From positions 4,147,430-4,211,429 of the forward strand of contig NZ_BSEC01000001.1 of assembly GCF_027923385.1 (NCBI RefSeq): 64,000 nucleotides of DNA, given 5' to 3'. This DNA is from Methylocystis echinoides. Its GTDB lineage: Bacteria; Pseudomonadota; Alphaproteobacteria; Rhizobiales; Beijerinckiaceae. Positions 12,088-22,137 of this stretch are shown here, one piece after another. A program made the position numbers and the translations under genes. Positions within the stretch are counted from its first letter, which is position 1, and each line of letters starts with the position of its first letter. The notes beneath the pieces are model-generated. The model saw only the letters and a list, made by a program, of their open reading frames with translations. It was not told where the DNA came from and made no database searches.

Positions 12088-12162
12088 GCTGCAGTAGCTC
12101 AGTGGTAGAGCACTCCCTTGGTAAGGGAGAGGTCGAGAGTTCAATCCTCTCTTGCAGCACCA
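12088..12162 (+). tRNA. tRNA-Thr (GGT)
   Basis: A 75-base tRNA with CCA encoded. The 7-bp acceptor stem is GCTGCAG paired with TTGCAGC, the anticodon stem CTCCC/GGGAG encloses loop TTGGTAA, so the anticodon is GGT (Thr). The T arm has the usual TTCAATC loop. Its 3' part (12116 onward) is the left attachment site of the integrated element and is duplicated at 22090-22137. Confidence 0.95.
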
Positions 12163-12163
12163 T
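12116..12163 (+). repeat. attL, 48-bp core
   Basis: Left copy of the perfect 48-bp repeat, running from the anticodon-stem region of tRNA-Thr through its CCA end plus one base. The complete tRNA gene is on this side, so its function is preserved after integration. Confidence 0.9.
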
Positions 12164-12270
12164 CTTTTTCCAGCAAATTCAGAGGACTTAGCGAAGCGGA
12201 AAGCGACGCTTCGCGACGCTTCGGAACAGAACAGAGCGCGAAGACCCAGAATAAGTTGGGTGAAATCAGG

Positions 12271-12576
12271 GTGGCGCGTTCACTGTCTGGTCGCGCGCCC
12301 CTCGGTCAGTCCCCCGCCGCTGAAAAAGAAAACGCCGCCCCGGCTGGTCCCCGGAACGGCGCAAAACACAATGAGAAAGCATTCGCTTTCGACGCAAATC
12401 CTTGCCCGCGCGGCGAGCGTCTGTCAATCGCCTCGGAGCTTCGCGACCTTGCGAGGGCGCTAAGGCGCGGCCCCGGCCCGCTGCGGGCCGACCCGGAGAC
12501 CGTTCTTTCGGCCAAGCATGAAGTCGCCGGCCGGCTTTGCCAGCTCGCCAAGCGGTTGGAGGCGGCCAATGTCTAA
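12271..12576 (+). CDS. hypothetical element-encoded protein
   Basis: The first gene inside the element, about 101 residues if it begins at GTG 12271; the start is uncertain because the frame is open from inside the tRNA. The C-terminal half (LSIASELRDLARALRRGPGPLRADPETVLSAKHEVAGRLCQLAKRLE, here in separate helices) is predicted helical and is the best-supported part. Its stop overlaps the next gene's ATG by eight bases, and that gene's GGAGG ribosome site lies within it. I do not recognise a family. Confidence 0.5.
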   Translation: MARSLSGRAPLGQSPAAEKENAAPAGPRNGAKHNEKAFAFDANPCPRGERLSIASELRDLARALRRGPGPLRADPETVLSAKHEVAGRLCQLAKRLEAANV

Positions 12577-13531
12577 CGCCGCCGCCCTCTCCATCGTCCG
12601 TCTTCCGCGCCGCCAGCGCTTCACGTCCATCGATAATCGCATCCTCTCGGGGGGATATCTCACCTTGGAGGCGATCGGGATGCTTTCGCACCTGTTGAGC
12701 CGACCTGATGACTGGACCGTTTCAATCCAGCAGCTCGCCACGCACTTCAAATGCGGGCGCGACAAAGTGCAGCGCATCATGAACGAGTTGCGCGATGCCG
12801 GCCACGCTCGGTTGCGGGCCATTCGTGAGGATGGCCGGCTGAGGGGCAAGCGCTGGGAGATTTCCGAGGAACGGGACGGCTCCAACGAAGCCGCGCAAGC
12901 GAAAGCGACGCAGGATTTCAGACAGCCTGAAAACCCGGTTGTCTGTGAGGGCTCAGAAAGCCTGGAAAACAGACAGCCGGAAAACCGGCCTGTCAAAAGA
13001 CTAAAGAATGAATATAACAAAATACCCCCTAAATCCCCCAGCGAGGTGACGCCCGACACGGGGCCGAGCTTCGACGAATTCGAACGGGCGTATCCGTTCG
13101 GCGACGCCGACCCCTGCCAGGCCATGCGCTACTTCCGGGGGCTTCGATCCGATGACCGCCGCAAGGTGCTGGCCCATGCGCCCGGCTACGTCGCTGACCG
13201 AAAGGCGCGAGGGCTGCCGGTCGCAGCGCCGCAAACCTACCTGCGTTGTCGCATTTGGGAGGCCCAATTGGGCATTCGGAATGGTGATGCTGGCAGGACG
13301 GCGGCTCGTCCCCGAGACGCGCAGTCTCAGGGAGCTTCGATGGCTTCGCGGACGGGCAATAGCGGGATTTATCAGTTTCCGGACGGAAAGTGGTTTCTGA
13401 GCGACGGCACGAAGAACCTCGCTGCGTGGAACGACTATGAGCGGCGCAGTGGCATTCGCAACCTGTCGCTCTACCGGCCGGACCCATGGCCGCCCGGCCA
13501 CGGGCTTTCGTCCTATCACCGTGCGGCTTAG
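12569..13531 (+). CDS. winged-helix replication-type protein of the element
   Basis: A 320-residue protein starting at ATG 12569 after GGAGG. Residues about 15-105 form a winged-helix domain (ILSGGYLTLEAIGMLSHLLSR, IQQLATHFKCGRDKVQRIMNELRDAGHARL) of the kind found in plasmid and phage replication initiators and helix-turn-helix proteins of Hyphomicrobiales prophages. A polar linker follows (to about 165), then a helical region (SFDEFERAYPFGDADPCQAMRYF). Its position next to attL and before HNH/terminase is where satellites often carry a replication gene. DNA-binding is well supported; a replication role is inference. Confidence 0.65.
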   Translation: MSNAAALSIVRLPRRQRFTSIDNRILSGGYLTLEAIGMLSHLLSRPDDWTVSIQQLATHFKCGRDKVQRIMNELRDAGHARLRAIREDGRLRGKRWEISEERDGSNEAAQAKATQDFRQPENPVVCEGSESLENRQPENRPVKRLKNEYNKIPPKSPSEVTPDTGPSFDEFERAYPFGDADPCQAMRYFRGLRSDDRRKVLAHAPGYVADRKARGLPVAAPQTYLRCRIWEAQLGIRNGDAGRTAARPRDAQSQGASMASRTGNSGIYQFPDGKWFLSDGTKNLAAWNDYERRSGIRNLSLYRPDPWPPGHGLSSYHRAA

Positions 13532-20852: not shown

Positions 20853-21223
20853 CCCTGCCGACGCTGCGCACTCCCGAGGAGGTTGCGGCTCATTTTGGGA
20901 TGAGCGTCCGCACTCTCAGCGATCACGCGCGCAAGCACGGAATTGGCACTAAGATAGGCAAAACGCGCCGTTTCACTGACGCGGATATCCTCGCCCTGAT
21001 CGAGGCCGGACGATGCTCAAACTCTATCGCCGAAAACGGGACAAAAATTGGCGCATCCGCGGGACGCTCTTCAGGTGCAAGCTTGAAGAAAGCACGGGAA
21101 CTGCTGACCGCCCGCAAGCTGAATTGCTCCTCACCGCCCGCATCACGGAAATCACGCAACGCCACGTCAAAGGCGCCGTGCTCGGTCATCGCCCTTCCCC
21201 GTCCTTCGCAGAGGCAGTCGTGA
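20849..21223 (+). CDS. HTH DNA-binding protein (excisionase-like)
   Basis: Reading from GTG 20849, overlapping the portal stop. Residues about 4-52 (TPEEVAAHFGMSVRTLSDHARKHGIGTKIGK, then RRFTDADILALIEAG) form a MerR/excisionase-type HTH that usually binds DNA next to att sites. The frame stays open to 21223, 211 bases into the integrase gene, where the product becomes Ser/Arg-rich and probably non-structured. A functional role in the excision/integration switch is likely from its position; the length of the C-terminus is uncertain. Confidence 0.7.
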   Translation: MTLPTLRTPEEVAAHFGMSVRTLSDHARKHGIGTKIGKTRRFTDADILALIEAGRCSNSIAENGTKIGASAGRSSGASLKKARELLTARKLNCSSPPASRKSRNATSKAPCSVIALPRPSQRQS

Positions 21224-22017
21224 GCTACATTGAGAAAGGAGGCGAGCGTCGCTTTTTGTTGCCTTTGCTCGACATTTTCAGCGATCGACCCATAGACGCT
21301 ATCCACCAAGAGGAAATTGACGGAGCGGCGCGCCGACTGCTTCCGGGCCGGTCCCCGGCAACCCTCAATCGCCAAATCTTTGCGCCGATGAGCGCCGTTT
21401 TGAAATCCGCCGGGGTCGAGACCAAGATCAGACGCCGCAAGGAGGTGGAGCGCGAGCCGCGATGGTTGACGCCAAAGGAGGCAAAACAGCTGGTCGACGC
21501 CTGCAACCCGTCACTGCGGCCGCTCGTGATTTTCCTGGTCTATACCGGTGCACGTGTCGGCGAGGCGCTTTGGCTCGATTGGCGATATGTGGACCTGTCT
21601 AGGGCGCACGTCGCCTTCCCAAGAACCAAGAACGGCGAGCCGAGAGGGCTCCCGCTGCATCCTGAAGCCGTCGCGGCTCTTGCCGCTCTTTCACACCGCG
21701 AAGGGGAAATCTTCAGGCGACCCGACGGCCTGCCCTATACGCGCCCCGACGACGAGGACGAAGCCGACACTTCGGCGGGAAGTCGCATCGCCCGCGCCTT
21801 TGGCGCGGCCTGCCGGAGGGCTGGGATTGAGCATTTTCGACCGCACGACTGTCGACACACTTGGGCGACCTGGCACTACCAGCAACATCGGGATTTGCTC
21901 GCGCTGAAACGGGCGGGCGGATGGAAATCCGAGGCGATGGTTTCACGCTACGCCCACGTCAATAGTGAGAACTTGCGAGCCGAGATCGAAGCGCTGCCAA
22001 GCCTCAAAAGTGGGTGA
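21013..22017 (+). CDS. int: tyrosine-type site-specific integrase
   Basis: A 334-residue phage integrase. The catalytic residues are in place: Arg181 (YTGARVGEALWL), His278 and Arg281 (HDCRHTWATW), and Tyr313 (SRYAHVN). The N-terminal part (residues 1-150) contains the arm/core-binding SAM-like region. It starts at ATG 21013 inside the preceding HTH reading frame and ends 72 bases before attR. It would catalyse insertion at the tRNA-Thr 3' end. Confidence 0.95.
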   Translation: MLKLYRRKRDKNWRIRGTLFRCKLEESTGTADRPQAELLLTARITEITQRHVKGAVLGHRPSPSFAEAVVSYIEKGGERRFLLPLLDIFSDRPIDAIHQEEIDGAARRLLPGRSPATLNRQIFAPMSAVLKSAGVETKIRRRKEVEREPRWLTPKEAKQLVDACNPSLRPLVIFLVYTGARVGEALWLDWRYVDLSRAHVAFPRTKNGEPRGLPLHPEAVAALAALSHREGEIFRRPDGLPYTRPDDEDEADTSAGSRIARAFGAACRRAGIEHFRPHDCRHTWATWHYQQHRDLLALKRAGGWKSEAMVSRYAHVNSENLRAEIEALPSLKSG

Positions 22018-22089
22018 AATGTGGGTGTATGATCGCTGAAAAATCTGAAGCACTAAATAAAATAAGGAGTTACATCATGCCGCATACTG

Positions 22090-22137
22090 CCTTGGTAAGG
22101 GAGAGGTCGAGAGTTCAATCCTCTCTTGCAGCACCAT
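22090..22137 (+). repeat. attR, 48-bp core
   Basis: Right copy of the perfect 48-bp repeat. It has only the 3' portion of tRNA-Thr, without the acceptor and D arms on the 5' side, so it is not a second tRNA gene. It marks the right end of the element. Confidence 0.9.

Follow-up and report, generated by a model that had tools for sequence, protein, structure and literature searches.

Capsid-forming phage-inducible chromosomal islands (cf-PICIs) are defined, in the available parts of the published accounts, by a gene set that includes a small terminase and head-tail connectors (PMC10690885; PMC13230959). According to the accessible text of one of these, they need only tails from a helper phage (PMC10690885), and an excerpt of a further report has them spreading via their own heads joined to the tails of diverse phages (PMC13345588). 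Here I describe a 9,974-bp element in a 64,000-nucleotide stretch of the genome of the alphaproteobacterium Methylocystis echinoides (NZ_BSEC01000001.1, positions 4,147,430 to 4,211,429; hereafter the window). Between two repeats of a tRNA-Thr gene, it encodes an integrase, an HNH endonuclease, a terminase large subunit (TerL), an HK97-type capsid protein, a protease, and a portal protein, and no tail gene was recognised among its 13 scanned open reading frames (ORFs). The same tail-less layout recurs across Alphaproteobacteria, and the window element is not a one-off deleted prophage. It is likely to be a phage satellite that builds an HK97-type head of its own and borrows the other parts of its particle.

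The element and its insertion site

The repeats that bound the element correspond to the 3′ part of a tRNA-Thr(GGT) gene, which the left copy keeps intact. The preliminary description, made from the sequence alone, had noted perfect 48-bp repeats; these (12116-12163 and 22090-22137) are indeed present, as the core of a 52-nt repeat with one mismatch. A congener (G114) has an empty site, in which an intact tRNA-Thr gene stands between the left and right flanks. Its left flank is 76% identical to that of the window up to the end of the repeat, and its right flank is 73% identical and begins about 270 bp further on, the equivalent distance in the window being 117 bp. In two other congeners (G586 and G587), the right flank is present, with no tRNA-Thr gene within the 4-5 kb read. 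The element has evidently integrated into the tRNA-Thr gene by site-specific recombination. The host has four matches to PF02461, the ammonia/methane mono-oxygenase subunit family, which is consistent with a methanotroph.

Family scans with Pfam and PHROGs (E up to 0.1) covered 13 of the ORFs in the region. They bore out the integrase, HNH, large terminase, HK97-type capsid, protease, and portal assignments of the preliminary description. The features are as follows; L010 is a close relative, a contig of the IMG/VR database.

12088..12162, + strand: tRNA-Thr(GGT), the attachment gene (ARAGORN; Rfam RF00005)
12112..12163, + strand: attachment (att) repeat, left copy, 52 nt, 51/52 identical to the right copy (repeat search)
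12518..13531, + strand: replication-initiator-like protein (rep; HTH_36, PF13730, 2.3e-7; phrog_270, 5.6e-10), 85% identical in L010
13486..13911, + strand: HNH endonuclease of packaging-module type (PF01844, 3.3e-5; phrog_2323, 3.6e-24)
13958..15613, + strand: terminase large subunit (PF20441, 2.8e-37; PF03354, 8.1e-21; phrog_9, 4.9e-140), 46% identical to HK022 TerL
15610..15822, - strand: small ORF, no match in L010
15788..16042, - strand: XRE-type repressor-like protein in opposite orientation (weak HTH_31/HTH_3; PADLOC control protein, 1.8e-6)
16179..16574, + strand: ORF in the variable cassette, with a twin-arginine-signal-like N-terminus by eye; no family, no match in L010
16567..16782, + strand: 71-aa protein, 76% identical in L010, no convincing family
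17051..17734, + strand: 227-aa protein (u227) directly ahead of the capsid gene; weak match to a MerR-like N-terminal fold
17804..19084, + strand: HK97-type major capsid protein with a long N-terminal part (PF05065, 1.3e-27; phrog_617, 2.2e-67)
19081..19629, + strand: S78 prohead protease (PF04586, 9.1e-39)
19620..20852, + strand: portal protein (PF04860, 4.7e-93)
20849..21223, + strand: AlpA/excisionase-like HTH_17 protein (PF12728, 1e-8; phrog_1840, 2.9e-9)
21013..22017, + strand: tyrosine integrase (PF00589, 9.4e-26; phrog_1, 2.4e-48)
22086..22137, + strand: att repeat, right copy (repeat search)

The core genes are open along their whole length and closely packed, with overlaps of 4 bp (capsid/protease), 10 bp (protease/portal), and 4 bp (portal/excisionase). 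Contig L010 (10,205 bp) carries the same element in a tRNA-Thr(GGT) gene with 47-bp repeats. Protein identities between the two are 85% for rep, 91% for HNH, 96% for TerL, 89% for the capsid, 91% for the protease, 95% for the portal, and 90% for the integrase. The ratios of nonsynonymous to synonymous substitution (dN/dS; Nei-Gojobori) for the pair are 0.06 for TerL and the portal, 0.12 for the integrase, 0.16 for the capsid, 0.17 for the protease, 0.18 for HNH, and 0.27 for rep. Higher values were obtained for u227 (0.38), the excisionase-like ORF, which overlaps the integrase (0.42), and the 71-aa ORF (0.79). Purifying selection acts on the head genes. In L010, the segment between about 15.5 and 16.6 kb, with the repressor and small ORFs, is replaced (identity 0.36-0.63), as expected of an exchanged immunity or cargo cassette. 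As judged from the sequence, the element holds intact, selected genes for excision and integration, replication start, the head shell, protease, portal, terminase motor, and HNH.

The start of TerL was set at 13958 because the N-terminus MGLRGPGA is common to the aligned members; seven of the eight are identical there and the eighth differs at one residue. I take this motif (13958-13987) to resemble the N-terminus of P27-type small terminases, and it may be a relic or a recognition tail that became fused to TerL. The repressor-like ORF, whose Pfam match is weak, has a homologue in 8 of the 13 relatives searched. For u227, 96 homologous proteins were found at E<=1e-3, its own included, and its predicted structure is confident (pLDDT 92.3), with a weak MerR-like N-terminus. 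MerR-like proteins occupy the same slot in L013 and, weakly, in L012 and L015, with no detectable profile similarity to u227. The protein could act as a regulator or confer packaging specificity. In L012, such a slot protein is present and TerL is missing, an argument against a role tied to the element's own TerL. The excisionase-like and integrase frames overlap by 211 bp (20849-21223 and 21013-22017), an arrangement conserved in L010 and L011.

Distribution of the layout

In searches of genomes, with the window's own genome included each time, 6 of 199 genomes of the family had a capsid match (1e-30) and 8 of 397 genomes of the order had a portal match (1e-100). A scan of named genomes with the portal alignment gave 46 loci, mainly of two kinds. 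Of the first kind are 26 loci (L031-L056), where the order is capsid-protease-portal in 24, the other two contigs being cut before the capsid gene; a tRNA or tmRNA gene is found on 24 of the 26. The second kind comprises 18 loci (L057-L065 and L067-L075) with terminase-portal order, as in the phages HK97, Rivra, and Fraca, and a tRNA gene on 1 of the 18. The remaining two loci are L066, discussed below, and L076, where only a terminase was seen.

A repeat of at least 14 bp with the tRNA end was found at 16 of the 23 loci tested; the shortest may be due to chance, which is very unlikely for those of 44-51 bp. The 19 repeat-bounded elements are 9,396-11,542 bp in length (median 10,605). The RNA genes adjoining the integrase include tRNA-Thr, -Arg, -Gly, -Glu, -Ser, -Leu, -Ala, -Met, and -Pro and tmRNA, no repeat being found at the tmRNA and tRNA-Leu sites. 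The hosts include species of Rhodoblastus, Methylobacterium, Pleomorphomonas, Oryzibacter, Pinisolibacter, Brevundimonas, Afipia, Mesorhizobium, Rhizobium, Aquamicrobium, Marinicaulis, Reyranella, and Sedimentitalea; Rhodoblastus acidophilus DSM 142 and Methylopila sp. 73B are among the bacteria with a relative of the element.

A portal tree of 50 rows is divided by a branch (support 100/99) that separates 31 satellites from 18 normal-order phage rows; the portal of L066 does not belong to the alphaproteobacterial group and has its own long branch. A second tree of 48 rows was made by adding HK97, Cd, Rivra, Fraca, a NatCom phage, and the GTA-like (gene transfer agent-like) portal of the host and dropping eight rows. 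The 27 satellites in it are still on one side (97/98). The satellite portals appear in both trees as one group apart from the portals of the sampled phages; the sampling followed satellite-based patterns, and further phages could still fall inside the group.

The portal alignment also retrieved 414 relatives from IMG/VR, and the 80 best were retained. All 80 have a capsid ORF that precedes the portal and shares its strand (the portal ORF of L143 and L145 runs off the contig end), and 53 of the 80 are 9.0-12.7 kb long. I examined 56 stretches of 9.0-12.7 kb, three of them taken from longer contigs of 12.9, 13.7, and 29.6 kb, with small in-house profiles. TerL was found in 52, the adaptor Ad1 in 46, the head-closure protein Hc1 in 23, and an integrase in 39; 16 have a repeat of at least 15 bp at a spacing of 7.5-13 kb. 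Since most members of this wider set have an adaptor, the clade of the window element is an exception. Contigs L113 and L137 have terminal overlaps of 123 and 127 bp, giving circular maps of 10,040 and 10,657 bp. Overlaps of this size are what assemblers leave. These two are likely, though not proven, to represent genuine circles or DNA joined head to tail. L113 has in its terminase slot (2071-4030) an ATPase and a small partner (PADLOC HEC-01A, 3.5e-38; HEC-01B, 1.6e-4), a predicted pair resembling candidate defence genes.

Small terminase, neck, and tail genes

The preliminary description had reported no tail, connector, lysis, or polymerase gene, and none of these families matched any of the 13 ORFs in the Pfam and PHROG scans. 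Nor did family searches of these ORFs give a convincing small terminase, a protein that diverges fast and may escape them. A weak match (phrog_57, E 0.0094) fell on the excisionase-like ORF, and a second-rank match (phrog_4581, E 4.6e-6) on the HNH ORF, where HNH families score better. No relation of u227 to Nu1 or HK97 gp1 was detectable. As a positive control, the small terminase of L066 was found by the same search (phrog_5601, 1.5e-31).

Profiles of Ad1 and Hc1 built from relatives gave no match in positions 11001-23000 of the window (ORFs of at least 40 aa, E<0.5). The capsid and protease genes overlap, and thus the usual place of Ad1 is gone. At this threshold, neither protein was found within the elements of the window, L010, L012, L030, L031, L032, L034, L036, L037, L038, L039, and L049, of which L036 and L038 are truncated at the contig end; a closure match of L012 (E 0.066) falls outside its element. 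Both are likewise absent from the matches in L044, L045, L046, L051, L053, and L054. Other relatives have them: Pfam Ad1 is present in L033, L035, L040, L042, L043, L048, L052, and L055, and Pfam Hc1 in L042, L043, L048, and L050. A gp6-like adaptor (PF05135) lies between capsid and protease in the more distant satellites L042, L043, L048, L052, and L055, and the closure protein (PF05521) lies 3′ of the portal in L042, L043, L048, and L050. The adaptor is between capsid and protease in L040 as well and after the portal in L033 and L035. My own adaptor profile was positive for L047 and L050, and also for L056, where Pfam did not confirm it. On the 48-row portal tree, the adaptor requires three changes, with L011, L038, L051, and L054 omitted and L056 scored as having it.

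Connector genes among the hypothetical ORFs had been named beforehand as a finding that would weaken the satellite idea. The element yielded none. Some relatives turned out to have Ad1 and Hc1 in the absence of any recognised tail gene, and this favours a satellite lineage over a cut-down phage. Tail genes of the relatives were sought among 152 non-core ORFs, from which those overlapped for more than 40% by a core gene had been excluded. One set (A4) did not include the tape-measure ORF of L012, and four ORFs, one of L046 and three of L053, were omitted from the other (A5); the sets then held 59 and 88 ORFs. No tail family was found among the families listed for them (25 of 49 and 25 of 52, respectively).

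Variant elements

A second element of the window's genus, L012, measures 10.1 kb and lies at tRNA-Arg(CCT), where its repeat is 18 bp long. An 810-aa tape-measure protein (5686-8118; PF06791, 2.8e-16, and several PHROG tape-measure families) lies between rep and the repressor, replacing HNH and TerL; no other tail gene was recognised in L012. This protein could set tail length, compete with that of the helper, or be cargo. No such tape measure was found in the 80 kept viral contigs. Another IMG/VR contig, L189 (33.9 kb, of which 22.4 kb was analysed), has a tape measure with 66% protein identity and 74% DNA identity over 1.9 kb to that of L012. In L189, a portal is accompanied by weaker matches to the capsid and Ad1 and, towards the tail side, by large ORFs, the tape measure being the only tail gene with family support. 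This apparent siphophage contig is the best lead to a helper-type phage. The sample number of L189 adjoins those of L009, L010, and L113, which suggests that the four are from one study.

Four repeat-bounded elements (L044, L045, L046, and L053) have a capsid, protease, portal, integrase, and, by eye, a long replication-type ORF, with no terminase. DNA primase families were matched by 8 of the 88 ORFs of set A5. Together with L051, whose contig is cut, the four form one portal clade (100/100). Four of the 56 IMG/VR stretches of 9.0-12.7 kb also have no terminase. In L016 (7869-18152), a capsid-protease-portal-u227 block without a terminase lies some kb from a second portal match; a GTA-like terminase ORF and an intervening serine-recombinase-like ORF were recognised there by eye.

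Proposed life cycle and alternatives

From the gene content, I infer a cycle of induction, excision, own-head assembly, packaging, and neck and tail borrowing. Infection by a helper phage, or its induction, would relieve the XRE-type repressor, and the excisionase and integrase would excise a circle of about 10 kb. The circle would replicate with its own initiator and host or helper machinery. Small heads might then be built around the satellite portal and filled by TerL and HNH, with packaging specificity coming from an unrecognised packaging protein, for which u227 is one candidate, or from the small terminase of the helper. Adaptor, head closure, and tail would be taken from the helper, giving a chimeric infectious particle.

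A remnant of a temperate phage that has recently lost its tail and lysis genes and is now inert would have an HK97-like terminase and portal, as in tailed phages, and no recognised tail or lysis gene, just as seen here. This is very unlikely, because the same tail-less set stands beside a dozen or more different tRNA or tmRNA genes in many families, in a gene order that is the reverse of that of HK97, Rivra, and Fraca. In addition, the portals are grouped apart from those of the sampled phages, dN/dS is low with the core genes unbroken, and circular relatives exist. The earlier argument against recent deletion is upheld by the recurrence at different tRNA genes and the purifying selection; a relative with a full tail module, which would have spoken for deletion, is absent among those read, in which the tape-measure gene of L012, standing alone, was the sole tail gene encountered.

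A self-sufficient tail-less virus or vesicle-like transfer element would explain why all that a DNA-filled head needs is present, bar a recognised small terminase, in a diverse and widespread lineage. An HK97 head that has a portal and is filled by a terminase is not known to have any route into a new cell without a tail. Some relatives retain Ad1 and Hc1, whose known role is to join the tail, and the 13 ORFs include no recognised lysis gene; such an element is thus highly improbable. The capsid block might instead mainly interfere with or rob the helper through mis-assembly or decoys, the DNA being packaged in helper heads as in classical PICIs. The terminase-less elements and IMG/VR stretches described above would fit this, as would the ATPase pair of L113 and the lone phage-like tape measure of L012 as a possible decoy. 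I consider it very unlikely for the window element, which keeps its packaging motor, namely a strongly conserved TerL together with HNH and the portal; TerL is also kept in nearly all of the IMG/VR stretches.

Several points weigh against a satellite with its own head. No related helper prophage was found in the host genome, the sole other portal match being in a GTA-like cluster, and the tape-measure family PF06791 had no match. The prevalence is low, at 4 of 385 genomes of the class (portal alignment, E<=1e-80; the count includes the window's own genome, and few candidates were scored in each). The lists of non-core ORFs missed the adaptors of L025/L040, L033, L035, and L042, which were later found by the profile search (ORFs of at least 40 aa), and small tail genes in relatives could likewise have escaped the tail censuses. 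The absence of a small terminase rests on family searches for a fast-diverging protein. Unless a helper supplies a small terminase and connectors, the head may stay incomplete.

The satellite reading remains the preferred one, and its alphaproteobacterial lineage very probably travels by borrowing phage tails and probably connectors too. I lean slightly towards an old lineage with graded dependence on helpers. Some members would have the head, TerL, and both neck proteins; others, as here, the head, portal, and TerL, borrowing neck and tail; still others would have lost the terminase too, and in L012 the tape measure may set or disturb the length of the borrowed tail. If neck genes are absent from the lineage, the helper's adaptor would recognise a foreign portal directly, moving the specificity barrier one step inward. 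The lineage would be a natural series of gain and loss for adaptor, closure, and terminase, in which one could ask whether the portal-adaptor, adaptor-tail, or terminase-portal interface limits the usable helpers. It also suggests that methanotrophs and other environmental Alphaproteobacteria harbour tail-stealing elements that can be mistaken for defective prophages.

Comparison with known systems

The window proteins are homologous to those of phage HK97 and the alphaproteobacterial phages Rivra and Cd: TerL is 46% identical to those of HK022 and HK97, the portal is 35-37% identical to those of Cd and Rivra, and the protease and capsid belong to the same families. Those genomes are 40-62 kb in size, and their order is TerS-TerL-portal-protease-capsid-connectors-tail in Rivra and HK97 and terminase-portal-protease-capsid in Cd. 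Gene transfer agents are tailed and lack both an integrase and att repeats. A GTA-like cluster is present in the host (GTA-gp10, PF11836, 4.7e-32), and its portal is the longest branch in the 48-row tree. Identity of the window element with a gene transfer agent was rejected, since it has an att repeat and an integrase and its portal is not GTA-type. The GTA-like cluster (L017, C1:1123000-1142000) has TerL, portal, capsid, and GTA-gp10 and also holds 60-bp and 49-bp direct repeats at a spacing of about 2.66 kb.

The Streptomyces satellites MulchRoom and MiniFlayer, likened here by description in the available part of the source, also encode their own capsid and packaging genes, and MulchRoom is thought to take its tail from a helper. 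Unlike the window element, they are described there with virulent helpers, terminal repeats, a small terminase, a scaffold, and a head-tail adapter (PMC10690885). L066, from the betaproteobacterium Lampropedia cohaerens (2878-14438, 11.5 kb), is bounded by 74-bp repeats, has the capsid-protease-portal order, and has an integrase by tRNA-Arg. It differs in having, besides the small terminase, Ad1 (1.1e-21) and Hc1 (1.7e-34), in the order capsid-protease-portal-HNH-TerS-TerL-Ad1-Hc1. Thus, in its head, packaging, and connector genes, L066 matches the part list of cf-PICIs, and it shows that the reversed capsid order also occurs outside Alphaproteobacteria.

An AlpA-like protein is a trait of PICIs. 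The window element has a clear HTH_17/excisionase-like protein, and its XRE-type repressor-like ORF is weak by Pfam. It is a chromosomal island with an integrase and att repeats, and, like cf-PICIs of the EcCIEDL933 type and their plasmid form cf-PISP in the available text, it has its own HNH, TerL, HK97-type capsid, protease, portal, and putative repressor gene and no recognised tail (PMC10690885; PMC13230959). In PMC13230959, 900 capsid sequences are counted. Its head proteins are, as described for those elements, apart from those of the phages sampled, the published cf-PICIs being set beside it by description only. Unlike them, it has no recognised small terminase, adaptor, or closure protein, and HNH-TerL lie ahead of the capsid block. 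The preliminary description had proposed a possible cf-PICI; the compact, tail-less, capsid-carrying satellite stands, while membership among the published cf-PICIs is not fully supported. Because adaptor and closure proteins were searched for and not found, the element is not filed as a cf-PICI, though it would work like one. By borrowing the neck as well as the tail, it would go one step beyond the cf-PICIs portrayed in the available parts of those accounts.

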